Assembly: GCF_017792025.1 (NCBI RefSeq)
Contig: NZ_CP046956.1
Span: forward strand, 3,720,001 to 3,784,000
Origin: Sediminibacillus dalangtanensis
Lineage (GTDB): Bacteria > Bacillota > Bacilli > Bacillales > Amphibacillaceae
DNA: 64,000 bases
Direction: 5' to 3'
This document shows positions 50,096-60,240 of the stretch, in pieces. The position numbers were made by a program, and so were the translations under genes. How positions within the stretch are numbered: the stretch's first letter is position 1; each line of letters starts with the position of its first letter. The notes below the pieces were generated by a model that saw only the letters and a list, made by a program, of their open reading frames with translations, had not been told where the DNA came from and did no database searches.

Positions 50096-50839
50096 ATGGG
50101 AATGACAGTTAAACAAGTCGCCGATCTAGTCGGAATCAGTGTGCGCACACTCCATCATTATGATGAAATCGGATTGCTGCCTCCAACTGACATATCGTCC
50201 GGAGGATACAGAATCTATTCGGACGAGGATTTGGAGCAGCTTCAACAAATTCTCTTTTACAAAGAACTCGGATTTCCATTAAAACGAATCAGTGAAATAA
50301 TGAATGCACCTTCCTTCGATCGCCGGGAAGCCTTGGAACTGCAGCACAGCATGCTGCTGGAAAAAAGGCGCCGGCTCGATAACATGATTGCATTGGTGGA
50401 ACAGACGATTCAATCAGCAAAAGGAGAGATCAAAATGACGAATGAAGAAAAGTTTGCCGGGTTTGATTTCAGCCGAAACCCTTATGAGCAAGAAGCACGG
50501 GAACGATGGGGAGATAAAGCTGTCGATGAATCGAACCAAAAGCTCGGAACCATGACGAATGAAGAGCAGCAGGCAATGGGGGAAGAAATGAATAATATTT
50601 ACCGGTGCCTTGCCGGTATACGCCACCAAGATCCTGCATCGGAAGAAGCGCAGGCTGCTATTGGGGAATGGTTCCGTTTGTTGAACAAAATGGGCAGCTA
50701 TTCGCCAGACGCCTTCAAGGGGCTTGGTCAAATGTATGTCGATGATGAGCGGTTCACGAAAAACATCGACCAATTCGGATCCGGCCTGGCGACTTTCATG
50801 CGGGATGCCATGGCAGTGTTTGCCGACAACCGTCAATAA
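50096..50839 (+). CDS. MerR-family regulator with TipAS antibiotic-recognition domain
   Basis: This 247-residue protein has an N-terminal MerR winged helix (VKQVADLVGISVRTLHHYDEIGLLPPT, then GGYRIYSDEDLEQLQQILFYKELGFPL). A coiled-coil linker (about 75-110) and a C-terminal TipAS-like helical domain follow, with ERWGDKAVDESNQKL and MNNIYRCLAGIRHQDPASEEAQAAIGEWF. TipAL/Mta/SkgA relatives bind thiopeptides or other hydrophobic drugs and activate transcription. GGAAGGGAGG lies eight bases before the ATG. No efflux gene is downstream on this strand, so its only visible target is its own promoter. A MATE pump lies convergently nearby. Confidence 0.9.
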   Translation: MGMTVKQVADLVGISVRTLHHYDEIGLLPPTDISSGGYRIYSDEDLEQLQQILFYKELGFPLKRISEIMNAPSFDRREALELQHSMLLEKRRRLDNMIALVEQTIQSAKGEIKMTNEEKFAGFDFSRNPYEQEARERWGDKAVDESNQKLGTMTNEEQQAMGEEMNNIYRCLAGIRHQDPASEEAQAAIGEWFRLLNKMGSYSPDAFKGLGQMYVDDERFTKNIDQFGSGLATFMRDAMAVFADNRQ

Positions 50840-53824: not shown

Positions 53825-55030
53825 TCATATCTGCCGTTGTAACAACCTGTGGGTTACAGCGGTGAGTAATGCGACACCATGCGGCAGCACCTCTTCATTC
53901 AACGTAAAGTGGGGACTGTGAAGCGGAAAGTTTTCCTTGTCCTTCCATCCGCATCCCAAGAACACCATTGCACCAGGCAGCTTTCTCGCAATATGGCTGA
54001 AATCTTCCCCTCCCATGCCATAAGGGGCTTCATAAATTTTTTGATCAGGAAAAAGGGTTCGAAAAGTTTCCTTCCATAATTCCACCAGCTTCCCATCATT
54101 GCACAAAGCAGGTTCTCCATTTTCGATATAGAGCTGATGGCGCCCCCCAAATAGCCGTGCAGTGGCGGCTACAGCTTCCAACTCCTCGATTAGCTGGCGT
54201 CTTACCTTCTCTGTGTACGCCCTGACTGTCCCTTTGATCGTCACCTGATCGGGAATAACATTAAAAGCCGCCCCTCCATTGATACTCCCTACACTTAACG
54301 CAGCAACGTCCAGCGGATCTACCCTTCTGCTGATCATGCCGTAAAGCCCTTGCAAAGTGTGAGCAGCACTCCATACCGGATCGATTGTCTGGTGAGGATA
54401 GCCGGCATGGCCGCCTTCTCCTTTTATCGTCAGTTCAAAGTTATCGATACTGGCCATGCTCGGTCCGGCATTCACCTGCAAGTCTCCTGATTGCTGCCAA
54501 GGGCACATATGCAACGCAAGGGCAGCCTCCACATCATCCAGTACACCAGCCTCCAAAAAATAAGGAGCCCCGGTCCGGCCATGAACATCGGTATCTTCTT
54601 CTGCAGGCTGGAATAAAAATTTTATCGTCCCGCATGGCAGTGAACCGGCCTGAAAATCCTCAGCCAGCAGTTCGGCAGCGCCCAACAAGATCGCCGTATG
54701 GGCGTCATGGCCGCACGCATGCATCACGCCATCTTGAGTCGAAGCGAAGGAAAGTCCGGTTGATTCCTGAATCGGCAAAGCGTCCATGTCAGCACGTAAA
54801 GCGATGACCGGACCGTCGCCATTCTTCAATACAGCTACAATCCCGTGACCGGCAATTCCCTTTTGAATCTTGATTCCTTGCAGATTTTCCAGACGAGCAG
54901 CCACAAATGCACTCGTCTTTTCTTCCTGAAAGCTGAGTTCAGGAAATTGGTGAAGGTAACGGCGCCAGTCGATGAGATCCTGCTTTATGGCTTCCGCTCG
55001 TTCTTTAAGTTTCTCCTCATAATCAGGCAA
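53825..55030 (-). CDS. M20D family metal-dependent amidohydrolase/deacylase
   Basis: This 401-residue enzyme has the zinc/manganese site Cys-His motif MHACGHDAHTAILLGAA, FLFQPAEED, LHMCPW, and the dimerisation domain TIKGEGGHAGYPHQTIDPVWSAA. The terminal metal-proximal His is in FPLHSPHF. The family includes N-acyl-amino-acid and indole-acetyl-amino-acid hydrolases and N-acetyldiaminopimelate deacetylase. The TTG at 55030 has GAGAGGTGG seven bases upstream; an upstream TTG overlapping the previous stop has none. It is the last gene of a three-gene set with a DoeA-like hydrolase. It could perform the deacetylation step that DoeB does elsewhere; that is inference. Confidence 0.87.
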   Translation of the reverse strand: MPDYEEKLKERAEAIKQDLIDWRRYLHQFPELSFQEEKTSAFVAARLENLQGIKIQKGIAGHGIVAVLKNGDGPVIALRADMDALPIQESTGLSFASTQDGVMHACGHDAHTAILLGAAELLAEDFQAGSLPCGTIKFLFQPAEEDTDVHGRTGAPYFLEAGVLDDVEAALALHMCPWQQSGDLQVNAGPSMASIDNFELTIKGEGGHAGYPHQTIDPVWSAAHTLQGLYGMISRRVDPLDVAALSVGSINGGAAFNVIPDQVTIKGTVRAYTEKVRRQLIEELEAVAATARLFGGRHQLYIENGEPALCNDGKLVELWKETFRTLFPDQKIYEAPYGMGGEDFSHIARKLPGAMVFLGCGWKDKENFPLHSPHFTLNEEVLPHGVALLTAVTHRLLQRQI

Positions 55031-55047
55031 TCCTGCCCACCTCTCCC

Positions 55048-56247
55048 TCAACTGTTCACCAATATCTCTTCGGGTAAAGAACGGAAAGCTTGCTCTAAGT
55101 CTTCCAATAAATCTTCTATATCCTCAATCCCGGCAGAATAGCGGATCAATCCTTCCGGAATCCCCATGGCCGCCCGTTCTTCCGGGGTGCACTCAACGTG
55201 GCTGGTCGTTCGGGAAGGACCTACAATCGTTTCCACTGAGCCCAGATTGGCCGCCCGATTGGCATACTTCAATTTTGGCAGTAAGTGCCGTACGGTTTCT
55301 ACGCCGCCTTTTACGGCGAAACTAAGCATTCCCCCATATCGCTCCATCTGCCGTGAAGCAACCTCGTGTCCCGGATGGTCATCGAGACCAGGATAGTAAA
55401 CAGACTCGACGATCTCTTTTGTTTGCAGATACTTGGCGACAGCCATGGCATTTTCACACTGCCGGTCGACACGCAGTTTTAACGTTTTCATCCCACGAAG
55501 CAGCAGGTAGGCTGCCATCGGGTCGAGCGTTGCTCCGTTGATTTCCCGGTAGTGGTACACTTGCTCGACAAGTTCTTTGCTGCCGCAGAGTGCACCACCG
55601 AGTGCATCGGCATGACCACCGAGAAATTTTGTCGCACTGTGGATGACCAAATCAGCTCCAAGCTCCAGCGGCTGCTGGTTGATCGGCGTGGCGAACGTAT
55701 TATCAACGATGACCAGCGCTCCGGCGCGCTTTCCCGCCGCTGCCATTCTTTCAATATCGGTTATTTTCACCGTCGGATTGGTCGGCGTTTCCAAATAAAG
55801 TACCTTGCAGCCTTTCGCTATTTCCTTTTCAATGGCTTCGTGGTCTCCCGTTTCACAAAGGGTTACCTCTACTTGCTGGCGGGGAAGGAATTCGGTGAAA
55901 ATTTTATTGGTGCCACCATACGTATCTTTGATAGAGACGACTCTGTCACCGGGGCTGAGAAAGGTTCCCAGCGTATTGCTGATTGCTGCCATGCCGGTAG
56001 AGAAACTAGTGGCAGCCTCAGCATTTTCCAAACACCGTATTTTTTCCTCGAAGGCCTGGACGGTCGGATTCGTGTTCCTGCCGTAAATATGTCCCGGCTT
56101 GTTGCCAACCGCCACCTCGTACCATTCATCCATATCATCGTAACCAAATGATACACTATGAACGACAGGTACTTGCGTTGCACCGAAGGCAAGCGAATCC
56201 TTTTCCCCTGCCCAGATTGCCTGCGTCCCTTTTCTGATTTCTGTCAT
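55048..56247 (-). CDS. Cys/Met metabolism PLP enzyme (cystathionine gamma-synthase/lyase-like)
   Basis: This 399-residue fold-type I PLP enzyme has YGRNTNPTVQAFEEKIRCLENAEAATSFSTGMAAISNTLGTFL, KVLYLETPTNPTVKITD, LVIVDNTFATPINQQPLELGADLVIHSATKFLGGHADALGG (PLP Lys in SATKFLGGH), and RYSAGIEDIEDLLEDLEQAF. General chemistry is gamma- (or beta-) elimination or replacement on amino acids with gamma substituents. N-terminal VPVVHSVSFGYDDMDEWYEVAVGN differs from classical MetB/MetC. Its place between a DoeA-like ectoine hydrolase and a deacylase suggests a substrate other than cystathionine. It is 29 bases after doeA and 17 before the M20 gene. Confidence 0.85.
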   Translation of the reverse strand: MTEIRKGTQAIWAGEKDSLAFGATQVPVVHSVSFGYDDMDEWYEVAVGNKPGHIYGRNTNPTVQAFEEKIRCLENAEAATSFSTGMAAISNTLGTFLSPGDRVVSIKDTYGGTNKIFTEFLPRQQVEVTLCETGDHEAIEKEIAKGCKVLYLETPTNPTVKITDIERMAAAGKRAGALVIVDNTFATPINQQPLELGADLVIHSATKFLGGHADALGGALCGSKELVEQVYHYREINGATLDPMAAYLLLRGMKTLKLRVDRQCENAMAVAKYLQTKEIVESVYYPGLDDHPGHEVASRQMERYGGMLSFAVKGGVETVRHLLPKLKYANRAANLGSVETIVGPSRTTSHVECTPEERAAMGIPEGLIRYSAGIEDIEDLLEDLEQAFRSLPEEILVNS

Positions 56248-56276
56248 CACGACTCCTCCTCTTTTGATTTAACGTT

Positions 56277-57485
56277 CTAACTGATTTTTCCATCTGAAGG
56301 ATTGAGAAATGCGGAATCCCGGATGATCACTTCCCGAGGATAGTGGGTAAATGTCTCACAGCCGGTTTCGGTGACTCGGATCGTTTCACTTATTTCAATC
56401 CCATAATGCTTTAACCATAGAGCAGGTATCAGATGAAACGTCATATTAGGCTGTAAAACCGTCTTATCACCACTGCGAAGACTCGCAGTGTGCTCGCCCC
56501 AGTCTGGCGGGTAGTTCAATCCGACCGAATAACCGAGCCTTGCTTCTTTCATGATGCCATGCCGCTGAATCGATTGTTTCCAAGTATCGTTTACTTCTTC
56601 GCACGTCATGCCCGGAGCTATTTTTTGCAAAACTTCATTCAATCCTTCAGTCACATAGGATGCGGTGGTCAGGATTTGTTCGTCTGGCTTGCCGATAGAT
56701 ACCGTCCGGGCTAACGGAACGTGATACCGTTTGTAGCATCCGGCTATTTCCATGCTTACGGTTTCACCTTCTTGAAAAGAATCGTCTGACCAGGTCAGAT
56801 GAGGGACAACCGTATTCTCACCTGTCGGAAGAAATGGCACGATTGCCGGATAATCACCGCCATATTGCTCGGTCCCGGATAACATATGGTAGTAGAGTTC
56901 GGCAGCGGTGTCGCACTGTCTGCCCCCGGGTTTGACAGTTGCGATTCCTTTGGTCATCGCCTGTTCGGCAATTTTTCCCGCCCGTCTCATATATTCGATT
57001 TCTACATCGGATTTAATTAACCGGACGTGGTTGACCAATAAATCTGCATCTTGAAAGACTGCATCCGGTAAATGTTTGACCAGCTGGGAAAACGCCTTGG
57101 CCGTGAAGTAATAGTTATCCATTTCCACGCCGATGCGACGGTTTCCCTGCCCGATTTGTTTCAATATATCCGCAATGAAGGCCATAGGATGATGTGTAGG
57201 GGAATGAACGTAATAATCCGGGTAATCAATGACATTTTCATCATATAGCCATGTCCCTGATTTGGCTCCGGCTGCATCCATATGTCTTCCGACCCATAAC
57301 GGCTGGGGCTGGTCCAAAATGATCACAAGCATTTGGTGAACGTAAAATGACCAAGCATCGTAACCAGATAAGTAATTCATATTTGCCGGATCGGTGATGA
57401 GCAGTACCTCGATACCTTGCGCTTCCATTTGCTGCTTCGTCTCCGTCAATCGGTTCTGGTACTCCAAAATATCAAAGGGAAGCAA
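56277..57485 (-). CDS. doeA: DoeA/EutD-like ectoine hydrolase (M24 creatinase/prolidase fold)
   Basis: This 402-residue protein has the M24 pita-bread fold with strong ectoine-hydrolase features: ITDPANMNYLSGYDAWSFYVHQ, WVGRHMDAAGAKSGTWLYDENVIDYPDYYVHSP, RIGVEMDNYYFTAKAFSQL, GGDYPAIVPFLPTGENTVVPHLTWSDD, and RLGYSVGLNYPPDWGEHTASLRSGD. DoeA opens the tetrahydropyrimidine ring of ectoine to N-acetyl-2,4-diaminobutyrate. The usual five metal ligands of aminopeptidase P are not conserved, as in other DoeA proteins. The start is TTG with GGAGGGG five bases upstream. It heads an operon with a PLP enzyme and an M20 deacylase, under an upstream PucR-type gene. Confidence 0.85.
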   Translation of the reverse strand: MLPFDILEYQNRLTETKQQMEAQGIEVLLITDPANMNYLSGYDAWSFYVHQMLVIILDQPQPLWVGRHMDAAGAKSGTWLYDENVIDYPDYYVHSPTHHPMAFIADILKQIGQGNRRIGVEMDNYYFTAKAFSQLVKHLPDAVFQDADLLVNHVRLIKSDVEIEYMRRAGKIAEQAMTKGIATVKPGGRQCDTAAELYYHMLSGTEQYGGDYPAIVPFLPTGENTVVPHLTWSDDSFQEGETVSMEIAGCYKRYHVPLARTVSIGKPDEQILTTASYVTEGLNEVLQKIAPGMTCEEVNDTWKQSIQRHGIMKEARLGYSVGLNYPPDWGEHTASLRSGDKTVLQPNMTFHLIPALWLKHYGIEISETIRVTETGCETFTHYPREVIIRDSAFLNPSDGKIS

Positions 57486-57654
57486 TTCTACCCCTCCTTC
57501 GGATGTTTATTTTTCTTACTATTATGATAATTCAAAAGAGAGGTCGTTTGCGATATGCAGGATGTATGATGTTGAGAAGCACGTTATTATACAACATTTC
57601 AAGGAAGAGTGCGGGTCTTTAAAATCTGCCATAAGACTGGACCGGGAATCCCTA

Positions 57655-57850
57655 TGAAGTGCTTTTTCCTCGCTTCTTCGGCTCCTTTTGTTCTTCATCA
57701 CTGCGATGAAGTGCGTTTCCCTCCTTTCTCCGGCTCCTTTTGATTTTCATCACTCCGATGAAGTGCTTTTTCTTCGGCTCCTTTTGTTCTTCATCACCAC
57801 GATGAAGTGCGTTTCCCTCCTTTCTCTGGCTTCTTTTGATCTTCATCACT
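57655..57850. repeat. Tandem repeat of about 52/44 bases with internal palindromes
   Basis: Nearly four units start TGAAGTGC at 57655, 57707, 57759 and 57803. Three unit junctions carry CTTCATC/GATGAAG or TTTCATC/GATGAAG arms. Unit bodies alternate between CTTTTTCCTCGCTTCTTCGG-like and GTTTCCCTCCTTTCTC-like text. The minus strand is open for about 65 codons, reading a repetitive RKEGNALHR-DEEQKEPKK-like peptide. Similar short repetitive peptides are predicted in other Bacillus genomes, but I judge this as DNA repeat rather than a gene. The rest of the 445-base space between the pucR-like gene and doeA shows no gene. Confidence 0.8.
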
Positions 57851-57906
57851 CCGCGGCTGCGCTGATGCTTAAAAAGTACTCTTTTTTATCCACATAAAAC
57901 AAAAAA

Positions 57907-57923
57907 CCTTCCATTCCGGAAGG
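57907..57923 (-). terminator. Terminator of the PucR-type gene
   Basis: CCTTCC and GGAAGG with a 5-base loop are followed by T6 on the minus strand, eight bases after the stop codon. It should uncouple the regulator from doeA. Confidence 0.8.
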
Positions 57924-57930
57924 CAGCACG

Positions 57931-59598
57931 TCACTCTATTTTTTGCATCATCCAAAGCCGTACACTGAGTTCCAACAAAAACAAATCATCCGGATCGACA
58001 AGGGATAGCTGTGTCAAAGACTCGATCGTACGCAGTCGGTGCAGCAAGGATTGTCTGTGTAAGTTCAAGGAACGGGCGGTCTGACTGACATTGCCCTTAT
58101 GTTGGTTGTAAGCGAGAAAAGTCCGAATTAAATCGGTCTTTCTTTTTTTATCATATGCGATTAACGGAGAGACAGTCTGACTGACTATTTGTACGATCGC
58201 CTCATCGCTTGCGAAATTCATTAACAAACGGTTGATTCTCGTATCTTCGAAAAAAGTCCTGCCACCTGCTCCGTGTTGCTTTCTACCGATTTCAAGCGCC
58301 GTTTTTGCCTCCTGGTAGCTCTCCTTAAAGCAATCAATCCCACCTTCATGTTTACCTGCTCCCCAGGAAATTTCGAGGATTGGCAAAAAAGCATACAATC
58401 GTCTTTCAACAATGTCGAGAAATTGGTTAGCCGCTTTGTAATACAGCTTTTCGCTGTCCTCTAGGAAAATAATCACTTCCCCATCCTCAAACGTGGCCAT
58501 CGTTCTTCTGTTTAATACAGCACCCGCATTGGTGATTTCTTTTTGTAGGTTGAAGTTGAGGCTTTGCAGCGAGGAGTTGGCCGGATTGTCATTGCGGAAA
58601 TCGACCTGATTTTTATAGGAGATTTTCCCAACCAGGCAAGTGTACGGAAGGGATAAGTCGTATCCAAGCAGACCCGCTTTTGCAGTCTGAGTCCCTGTTG
58701 GTTGATTGCTTTTGACCAAGTCCAGCACATAGGTATCTTTTAAACGGATCTCCGCCATTTCCACAGCATTTTCTTTGGCAAAATGCAGGGCAAAAGCAGT
58801 CAATGCATGCTCCAGGACATTCATCATGAACCAGGTCAACGGCTGGCCGATTTCAGGCTGGAATAAAAGATACCCTTGAATTTTATGGTTATTTTGAATG
58901 GGAAGCCGGTAACAGGGACGTTTCTGAAGAAACCCAGGCTCCATATGGTGGTATAGAGGATGGTCATCAACGATACCGATTGATGCAGGAAAATGGCTAT
59001 TCTGATTGGAAGCACTGCTCTCAAACAAGGCAGCCTCCGCCTCCTCGAAACAGGAGTGACAGCGAATATCGCCAGCCTCATTTTGGACTGCAACCGGCAT
59101 TTGAATGTGCTGATAAACAACATCCGTGATATCGGTCAGCCCTTTGTCGTGCAGGACACTACTGATCAGCTGCTTACGAACTTCTTCCGCCTGGTTTCTT
59201 TGTTCTTGTTTCTCTTTGTTGATTTCCTGCAATACACTTTGCAGTACATCTCCAAAGCGAACCTCCCACGGCATTTCCACAATAATAAATTGGTGTTGTG
59301 CAGCAAGGGAAATGATCCTGTCTGGAATATTGAACACATAACGGCCAGTAGCAATTCCTAATAGAGAAGCGCCGGATTTGATTATGTCGAGCACAAATTG
59401 TTCGAGCTTTTCTGGATGTTCTTCACACCCCATGCCCGTGCTTAAGACAAATTCATTTTTACGGACAAAATTTTCTACCGGCCCTTCGATCACCGAGACC
59501 CATTCGACTTGCTTCCCATCAAGCAACCCTTTCCCTGTTTTTACTGCCGAGGTTTCCAACACTGGCAATTGGATAATGTCATTCGCCGTCAATCCCAT
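57931..59598 (-). CDS. PucR-family transcriptional regulator of the putative ectoine cluster
   Basis: This 555-residue protein has an N-terminal PucR sensor domain (LTANDIIQLPVLETSAVKTGKGLLDGKQVEWVSVIEGPVENFVRKNEFVLSTG, residues about 1-130). A variable GAF-like middle follows, and a C-terminal PucR HTH (RTFLAYNQHKGNVSQTARSLNLHRQSLLHRLRTIESLTQLSL). PucR proteins activate catabolic genes, classically purines, in response to a ligand or nitrogen state. The ATG at 59598 is preceded by GGCGGGG-type sequence. It is upstream of doeA on the same strand with its own terminator. tnrA next door supports a nitrogen theme. Role as activator of doeA and its partners is inferred from position. Confidence 0.85.
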   Translation of the reverse strand: MGLTANDIIQLPVLETSAVKTGKGLLDGKQVEWVSVIEGPVENFVRKNEFVLSTGMGCEEHPEKLEQFVLDIIKSGASLLGIATGRYVFNIPDRIISLAAQHQFIIVEMPWEVRFGDVLQSVLQEINKEKQEQRNQAEEVRKQLISSVLHDKGLTDITDVVYQHIQMPVAVQNEAGDIRCHSCFEEAEAALFESSASNQNSHFPASIGIVDDHPLYHHMEPGFLQKRPCYRLPIQNNHKIQGYLLFQPEIGQPLTWFMMNVLEHALTAFALHFAKENAVEMAEIRLKDTYVLDLVKSNQPTGTQTAKAGLLGYDLSLPYTCLVGKISYKNQVDFRNDNPANSSLQSLNFNLQKEITNAGAVLNRRTMATFEDGEVIIFLEDSEKLYYKAANQFLDIVERRLYAFLPILEISWGAGKHEGGIDCFKESYQEAKTALEIGRKQHGAGGRTFFEDTRINRLLMNFASDEAIVQIVSQTVSPLIAYDKKRKTDLIRTFLAYNQHKGNVSQTARSLNLHRQSLLHRLRTIESLTQLSLVDPDDLFLLELSVRLWMMQKIE

Positions 59599-59697: not shown

Positions 59698-60027
59698 TCA
59701 GCTATCTTTTTGGACGCCAAAACGGGCATTGATTTGACCGCGCATCAGTTCTTTACGGATTTTTTTGTCCTCTTCCTTCCGTTTTTCCTTTAACATCTCC
59801 TGTCTGATTTCAAAGGTTTGGACGCCTTCTTCCCGCTTGTTTGCAATATCGATCAATTGCTCCACATCAGCAAATGAATACTTACGATTTCCCCTATGGG
59901 AGCGTTCTGGAAATATCAGCTTACGTTCTTCATAATAGCGAATCTGCCTTTCAGACAAACCGGTCAATTCGCTGACAACGCCTATGGTGATTACTTTTCT
60001 TTCCTTGTAAGATGTATCCTGTTCCAT
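59698..60027 (-). CDS. tnrA: Global nitrogen regulator TnrA
   Basis: This 109-residue MerR-family protein reads KVITIGVVSELTGLSERQIRYYEERKLIFPERSHRGNRKYSFADVEQLIDIANKREEGVQT. It is nearly colinear with B. subtilis TnrA, with a short C-terminal helix (KIRKELMRGQINARFG) that in TnrA binds feedback-inhibited glutamine synthetase. GlnR would have a longer and different tail and would sit before glnA, so TnrA is preferred. A perfect consensus TnrA box lies 79 bases upstream. Confidence 0.93.
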   Translation of the reverse strand: MEQDTSYKERKVITIGVVSELTGLSERQIRYYEERKLIFPERSHRGNRKYSFADVEQLIDIANKREEGVQTFEIRQEMLKEKRKEEDKKIRKELMRGQINARFGVQKDS

Positions 60028-60105: not shown

Positions 60106-60122
60106 TGTAAGATAATCTGACA
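60106..60122. promoter_or_regulatory. TnrA/GlnR box upstream of tnrA
   Basis: TGTAAGATAATCTGACA matches TGTNANAWWWTMTNACA at every specified position. tnrA is known to be autoactivated in B. subtilis; the same is inferred here. Confidence 0.85.
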
Positions 60123-60240
60123 AAAGAAAACAGATATGTGAGTAATCTTAACATGAGAGCGGGCATGTTTTTCCTGGGTTAGGACATACTTTAGTTGGAA
60201 AACTGTCTTTCATTCTGTTGTTTAATAAATTTGATGCCAA

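Follow-up and report, generated by a model that had tools for sequence, protein, structure and literature searches.

A putative ectoine-catabolic gene cluster of Sediminibacillus dalangtanensis and a proposed route through homoserine

Gene content of the pucR-doeA locus

A stretch of 64,000 nucleotides of Sediminibacillus dalangtanensis (contig NZ_CP046956.1, positions 3,720,001 to 3,784,000; referred to below, at its full length, as the window) carries genes for a PucR-family regulator, an M24 protein resembling the ectoine hydrolase DoeA, a pyridoxal 5'-phosphate (PLP) enzyme of the Cys/Met family and an M20D amidohydrolase. An initial annotation had proposed these four minus-strand genes as an ectoine-catabolic unit, and all four were confirmed where it had placed them (Table 1). 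Together, pucR and the doeA, PLP and M20D genes that follow it probably make up the core of an ectoine-catabolic cluster of Gram-positive type. There is an overlap of 4 bases between the M20D and PLP frames, and 26 bases separate the M24 frame from the PLP frame, so that these three tightly packed genes are probably read as a single transcript. Between pucR and doeA lie 445 bases, which include a terminator-like hairpin. Promoter and terminator patterns are not in excess within the window, and neither tRNAs nor RNA families at gathering score were found across it. This genome also possesses ectC, with a model score over the cut-off.

Table 1. Features of the pucR-doeA region in window coordinates
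Feature	Position	Strand	Basis
PucR-family regulator, putative cluster regulator	57931..59598	-	Pfam PucR, GGDEF_2, HTH_30; longest frame reaches 59631
Predicted ectoine hydrolase DoeA/EutD, M24/creatinase fold	56277..57485	-	402 aa; TIGR02993 480 bits; 6twk 392 bits; tree
Cys/Met-family PLP enzyme, NF006097; proposed 2,4-diaminobutyrate gamma-lyase/hydratase forming homoserine	55048..56250	-	400 aa; NF006097 747 bits
M20D amidohydrolase; proposed N-acetyl-diaminobutyrate deacetylase replacing DoeB	53825..55051	-	408 aa; TIGR01891 366 bits
TnrA	59698-60027		NCBIfam model score over cut-off
Tandem array in the pucR-doeA gap	57654..57853	.	Units of ~44 and 52 bp; inverted repeat CACTTCATC-N3-GTGATGAA
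Terminator-like hairpin directly 3' of pucR	57906..57924	-	Consensus match only; such matches not in excess in the window

The M24 protein was best described by TIGR02993 (ectoine hydrolase; 480 bits, E 5e-144, below the curated cut-off of 613 bits), ahead of NF038259 (ectoine hydrolase, other type; 250 bits) and dipeptidase PepQ (94 bits), and among solved structures it reached 392 bits to DoeA 6twk and 95 bits to the best dipeptidase. The ectoine-hydrolase motifs quoted in the initial annotation are present in its sequence. Every DoeA match in the two genome samples described below (150 and 398 genomes) also missed the 613-bit cut-off, while a Klebsiella plasmid DoeA clears it with 758 bits, and for this reason we read the cut-off as one fitted to proteobacterial sequences. 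In a tree of 88 M24 rows, the outgroup, which is made up of only two PepQ-like M24 proteins of the same genome (best NCBIfam model dipeptidase PepQ, below cut-off), split from the other 86 with support 100/98, and the window protein fell inside a 13-row Bacillaceae group (support 100/99). The tree has some oddities, namely a partial frame on an implausible branch (L068_4) and long branches for L003 and L004. Judging by these scores and this tree, the window protein is DoeA-like and distinct from the two dipeptidase-like M24 proteins of its own genome, as had been proposed.

The M20D protein scores higher on the general amidohydrolase model TIGR01891 (366 bits, above cut-off) than on DoeB2 (NF038260, N(2)-acetyl-diaminobutanoate deacetylase; 255 bits, below the 550-bit cut-off, with a match spanning nearly the whole length), the family that carries out the same reaction as the one proposed for it. 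No match to the aspartoacylase-type DoeB (TIGR02994) was detected in the genome, and M20D is a likely N-acetyl-diaminobutyrate deacetylase, which agrees with the role first suggested for it. A methanotroph DoeB reported with mutant evidence in PMC7192451 is just 22% identical to that of Halomonas.

The PLP enzyme and its genomic partners

The PLP enzyme belongs to NF006097 (cystathionine gamma-synthase family protein), in which its 747 bits lie above the 600-bit cut-off, and it also matches PF01053. Its occurrence was examined in an order sample of 150 genomes, in which the PLP enzyme was counted over the NF006097 cut-off and DoeA at E <= 1e-80. The lowest score among the 39 family members in this sample was 701 bits, against 398 bits for the next Cys/Met protein, which makes NF006097 a sharp family. 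Beyond the entry of the genome itself, the nearest proteins come from Sediminibacillus (96%) and Virgibacillus senegalensis (95%), while the nearest solved relatives are methionine gamma-lyases (e.g. 6lxu). With 6lxu the enzyme shares the PLP Cys/Met fold and a Lys and a Tyr that we take to be catalytic; in contrast, the Cys two places past this Tyr is Gly or Ala in the PLP enzyme family. Moreover, 31 alignment columns, including the HYREI motif, are fixed in 12 PLP-family rows and differ in two rows of methionine gamma-lyase type. From this alignment, E236 and E353 are candidate residues for holding the gamma-ammonium group of the proposed substrate, 2,4-diaminobutyrate.

The PLP enzyme and DoeA each occur in 39 of the 150 order genomes, and these are the identical 39; each PLP gene has a DoeA gene 48-4007 bp away on the same strand. 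Eight genera mix PLP-positive and PLP-negative genomes, so the pairing is not one inherited block. An association with ectoine biosynthesis, raised in the initial annotation, was also borne out, as ectC over its cut-off was found in 34 of the 39 PLP-positive and 10 of the 111 PLP-negative genomes. In a class sample of 398 genomes, which has six PLP-positive genomes in common with the order sample, DoeA was present in 36, the PLP enzyme in 39 and both in 34.

A homoserine dehydrogenase over the NF004912 cut-off was present in 29 of the 150 order genomes, all of them PLP-positive (Fisher p 8e-23, kinship uncorrected), and in all 29 its gene lies 2-1358 bp downstream of the PLP gene on the same strand. 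Four residues of this enzyme, K, E, D and K, which are presumably catalytic, are retained in seven aligned cluster sequences.

The neighbourhoods of the best 80 of 592 DoeA relatives from a scan of named genomes were then compared, with no locus dropped. Homologues were counted by tblastn anywhere on the stretch, at identities of 60% (PLP enzyme), 45% (homoserine dehydrogenase) and 50% (aldehyde dehydrogenase), and short contigs (e.g. L055, L058, L075) score as absences, so that an absence can mean a contig end. The PLP gene was detected in 32 loci, homoserine dehydrogenase in 24 and aldehyde dehydrogenase in 26, and homoserine dehydrogenase never occurred without aldehyde dehydrogenase (24/24). 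The 32 PLP-positive loci contain PucR (27), M20 (26, of which 25 nearby and on the same strand), EutC (12), EutB (8) and both dehydrogenases together (23). Regarding deacetylases, an M20 homologue lies on 62 of the 80 stretches (32 at >=40% identity, 10 under 33%) and a DoeB homologue on two; none carries both and 16 carry neither.

As a rule, the genes run eutB-pucR-doeA-eutC-PLP-M20-homoserine dehydrogenase-aldehyde dehydrogenase, and a transporter gene often comes next. The complete set was found in L010, L015, L027, L032, L036, L037 and L071, with EutB, EutC, the PLP enzyme and homoserine dehydrogenase of L010 each above an NCBIfam cut-off, and a Priestia plasmid carries the full cluster in the usual order. 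The arrangement is far beyond chance, and the suggestion that the gene order is conserved across Bacillales is supported by this survey. The three-gene set of doeA, PLP and M20D genes initially put forward is real, but its partners are more than three, as shown by the loci with both dehydrogenases, eutC or eutB and by a second locus, eutB-eutC-doeA, in the same genome. As well, DoeA loci of Lentibacillus and Oceanobacillus (L035, L041-L044) belong to genomes without the PLP enzyme and without the NF004912 dehydrogenase; a GABA-type aminotransferase is present in L042 and L043 (family search on L042) and a distant aldehyde dehydrogenase in L041-L044, which suggests at least one further variant of the cluster.

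A candidate route through homoserine and its alternatives

According to the proposed scheme, DoeA would open the ectoine ring to give N-acetyl-L-2,4-diaminobutyrate, and M20D would strip the acetyl group to leave L-2,4-diaminobutyrate (DABA). The PLP enzyme would then expel the gamma-amino group of DABA as ammonia and hydrate a vinylglycine-type intermediate to L-homoserine, from which homoserine dehydrogenase would produce aspartate semialdehyde and aldehyde dehydrogenase aspartate. In the S. dalangtanensis genome, where the dehydrogenase pair is not beside the cluster, general homoserine enzymes would serve. Homoserine is proposed as the product because the NF004912 dehydrogenase, where present, always lies just downstream of the PLP gene. 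The initial annotation had the PLP enzyme eliminate or deaminate diaminobutyrate; the predicted substrate is supported, but the dehydrogenase points to a homoserine-forming reaction and not to plain deamination. What the sequence data establish is family membership, the order of the genes, co-occurrence across genomes and the replacement pattern described next; the catalytic steps, the regulation and the single transcript are predictions.

Three loci speak to the step that the PLP enzyme may perform. In L018 (Bacillus thermotolerans), L028 (Siminovitchia thermophila) and L101, the cluster retains PucR, DoeA, M20 and an aldehyde dehydrogenase (61-64% identical) but has neither the PLP enzyme nor homoserine dehydrogenase; a class III aminotransferase gene follows either right after the aldehyde dehydrogenase gene (L018) or after a BCCT transporter gene next to it (L028, L101). 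Since an aminotransferase is found where the PLP enzyme and homoserine dehydrogenase are absent, the simplest reading is that this pair does the aminotransferase's job and would convert DABA to aspartate semialdehyde. The unit of PLP enzyme, homoserine dehydrogenase and aldehyde dehydrogenase also occurs on stretches without DoeA (L094, L095, L097, L098). Asparaginase-like and aspartase genes lie ~3-4 kb from this unit in L097, and in L096, a 6.7-kb contig ending inside M20, an aspartase gene is directly 3' of the aldehyde dehydrogenase gene; these aspartase genes suggest that the product leads to aspartate.

Outside the Bacillales, the PLP gene (~61% identity) appeared in 28 enterobacterial plasmid records, three of which were examined (L089, L104, L105). 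Plasmids of Klebsiella pneumoniae, K. variicola and Pluralibacter gergoviae carry ehu genes, a MocR-type regulator gene, doeA, doeB and the PLP gene in this order. In the K. pneumoniae plasmid (L089), the MocR-type regulator EhuR, DoeA, DoeB and the PLP enzyme each score above their own cut-off, and eutC and an EutB-like gene are listed. Because loci with a canonical DoeB carry the same PLP family next to it, the PLP enzyme probably acts after deacetylation, whichever deacetylase serves. Within bases 1-48,445 of the 53,400 of L089, the gene table, which like those of the other plasmids is incomplete, shows neither a class III aminotransferase nor a homoserine or aldehyde dehydrogenase. In all three plasmids, insertion sequence (IS) elements are located near the ectoine uptake and catabolism genes, and ehu is incomplete in L105.

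Several observations weigh against a homoserine route tied to ectoine, and the first is chemical, as ammonia leaves poorly from the gamma position. The NF004912 dehydrogenase is missing from 10 of the 39 PLP-positive order genomes, including that of S. dalangtanensis, whose two clear homoserine dehydrogenase genes both fall short of the NF004912 cut-off. The linkage between DoeA and the PLP enzyme is also imperfect: four of the 43 DoeA matches in the order sample lie far from a PLP gene, all of them second copies in genomes that have a DoeA beside the PLP enzyme, and in the class sample five of 39 PLP-positive genomes are without DoeA and two of 36 DoeA-positive genomes without the PLP enzyme. 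The replacement pattern has its own exceptions. The genome of L018 encodes the PLP enzyme and homoserine dehydrogenase elsewhere, which makes replacement a feature of the locus; L053 (1 of 80 clusters) has both dehydrogenases beside DoeA in a genome without the PLP enzyme; and class III aminotransferase genes, detected with a generic tblastn query, also lie near PLP-positive L030 and L031. Among the Klebsiella plasmids, that of K. variicola carries, 2.8 kb past the PLP gene and on the far side of an IS element, a gene for a PuuC-like aldehyde dehydrogenase, which adjoins a GMC oxidoreductase gene and which we take to be unrelated to the pathway. Relatives of the Klebsiella PLP enzyme are found in Thauera, Aromatoleum and Acetobacter, genera not known to us for ectoine use. 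Finally, L100 has a lone DoeA, and two clusters are decayed: L099 keeps eutB, pucR, eutC and the PLP gene with doeA, M20 and the aldehyde dehydrogenase gene reduced to fragments, and in L102 doeA and M20 are broken across frames.

A further difficulty comes from L094 and L095, in which the module is followed by genes for an S-methylmethionine permease-like protein (below cut-off) and a homocysteine S-methyltransferase (over cut-off). The neighbours were classed by family search in L094 and by same-looking reading frames in L095, and the two represent one genus and two of the five DoeA-less genomes. Neighbours of this type suggest that the PLP family may accept several gamma-leaving groups. A GntR-like regulator gene precedes the module in both, and S-methylmethionine use is possible there.

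With these points considered, ectoine catabolism via homoserine is still modestly favoured for the Bacillaceae cluster. A broader proposal, to which we give slightly less than even odds, is that the NF006097 enzymes of ectoine clusters are a new homoserine-forming 2,4-diaminobutyrate gamma-lyase and that, with their dedicated dehydrogenases, they constitute a portable module leading from gamma-amino acids through homoserine to aspartate, which would replace transamination in ectoine catabolism and, without DoeA, might take in other amino acids with a gamma substituent, such as S-methylmethionine.

Among the alternatives, the strongest keeps the pathway to DABA and lets the PLP enzyme perform an alpha,gamma-elimination, yielding 2-oxobutyrate and two ammonia for isoleucine or propionyl-CoA. 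This is the reaction type of the methionine gamma-lyases, the nearest solved relatives, and it would fit clusters that lack the two dehydrogenases, such as that of the window, as well as plasmids such as L089. However, it assigns no function to the homoserine dehydrogenase located after the PLP enzyme in 29 of the 39 PLP-positive order genomes, nor to the aspartase genes that lie close to this module in L096 and L097, and we regard it as unlikely.

A still less probable explanation is that the window cluster mainly serves another compound, its M24 protein having shifted to a different N-acyl amino acid or cyclic amidine, and that the second doeA locus, eutB-eutC-doeA1 (C1:1295220-1298361; L005:14221-17362), encodes the true ectoine pathway of the genome. 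The presence of this second locus, and hence of two DoeA paralogues, counts against an ectoine role of the window cluster and favours this explanation, as do the score of the window protein below the TIGR02993 cut-off and the PLP module without DoeA in five of 398 genomes. On the other hand, doeA1 (496 bits) and the sampled DoeA matches are equally below that cut-off, orthologues of the window M24 protein adjoin eutB and/or eutC in Thalassobacillus and Halobacillus, and the doeA1 locus has no adjoining deacetylase gene. A BCCT transporter gene lies ~6 kb before the doeA1 locus.

It is very improbable that the PLP gene encodes an aminotransferase-like enzyme ('atf') that takes DABA to aspartate semialdehyde, with homoserine dehydrogenase merely draining the semialdehyde, since the protein is a Cys/Met-family member (PF01053, NF006097), a family not known to us to transfer a gamma-amino group onto a keto acid, and since L018, L028 and L101 carry a class III aminotransferase where the PLP enzyme is missing. 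The name comes from PMC13188858, in which the Bacillaceae gene following eutC is labelled 'atf' and thrA is described as reducing aspartate semialdehyde to homoserine.

Regulatory features and relation to known systems

The adjacent tnrA had been read as fitting a nitrogen-scavenging role, but its proximity is not general, as tnrA was found in 2 of 80 DoeA loci. Regulation of the cluster by TnrA was rejected: the pucR-doeA gap is free of TnrA-like sites, and sites with at most one mismatch number 25 in the window against 24.4 expected. Four of them are perfect, starting at 60106 and 60137 (upstream of tnrA), 53654 (downstream of the M20 gene) and 36654 (far away); the pair at 60106-60122 and 60137-60153, just upstream of tnrA, would fit self-regulation.

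The tandem array before doeA contains three exact copies of the inverted repeat, and a fourth with two mismatches is located at 50148, making four in the window against 0.01 expected. The exact pattern occurred in no fetched locus besides the window's own, including that of the close relative Sediminibacillus halophilus (L029), and the array was rejected as a conserved PucR operator.

If the homoserine route is true, it would represent a second chemical solution for the breakdown of a widespread osmolyte. The PLP reaction would be unlike those of described enzymes, as we know of none in which a gamma-amino group is lost with water addition by PLP, and the annotation of a family named merely 'cystathionine gamma-synthase family protein' could be corrected. 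Among the matches listed in a literature search, which leaves most subscription journals outside, no paper was recognised as proposing an ectoine route via homoserine, and the names diaminobutyrate lyase, ammonia-lyase, gamma-lyase, deaminase and hydrolase led to one paper, with a 'diaminobutyrate deaminase' among the Doe enzymes.

A precedent for homoserine formation is canavanine gamma-lyase, which is reportedly PLP-dependent, to go by the title of its source paper, and uses a water-addition mechanism. The enzyme converts canavanine to homoserine and hydroxyguanidine (PMC10018355, accessible part); its product is the one proposed for the window PLP enzyme, and its substrate differs.

General background is found in PMC5924519 and PMC10228743. 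Compared with the doeABCD/eutABCDE systems of Halomonas, Ruegeria and Sinorhizobium, ring opening by DoeA and the presumed end product aspartate are alike, whereas DoeB, DoeD and the MocR/Lrp regulators are replaced by M20D, the PLP enzyme (with homoserine dehydrogenase in many clusters) and PucR. Neither a DoeD aminotransferase nor a DoeC dehydrogenase was among the eight neighbouring proteins scanned, and no genome-wide search was made for them.

The partners called non-standard in the initial annotation are indeed present, but such Bacillales clusters are already in print and a DoeB2 model exists in NCBIfam. PMC13188858 (2026) states that ectoine use had been undescribed in Gram-positive bacteria and reports putative Bacillales clusters with pucR, eutB, eutC, eutD, 'atf', abgB, thrA and adh and without eutE, whose genes are named after proteobacterial ones and whose assignments are tentative. 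We infer from position that 'atf' is the PLP gene. The published order eutD-eutC-atf-abgB (amidohydrolase)-thrA-adh (aldehyde dehydrogenase), accompanied by PucR and lacking eutE, matches the plan of the window, which shares PucR, eutD, PLP/atf and abgB/M20D in order and likewise has no eutE. The window locus differs in having no eutB, eutC, thrA or adh, with eutB and eutC at the second locus of the genome. The gene set is already in print; in the accessible text of that paper the gene is treated as atf and no route with homoserine as an intermediate is proposed, and the homoserine detour put forward here is a new proposal.

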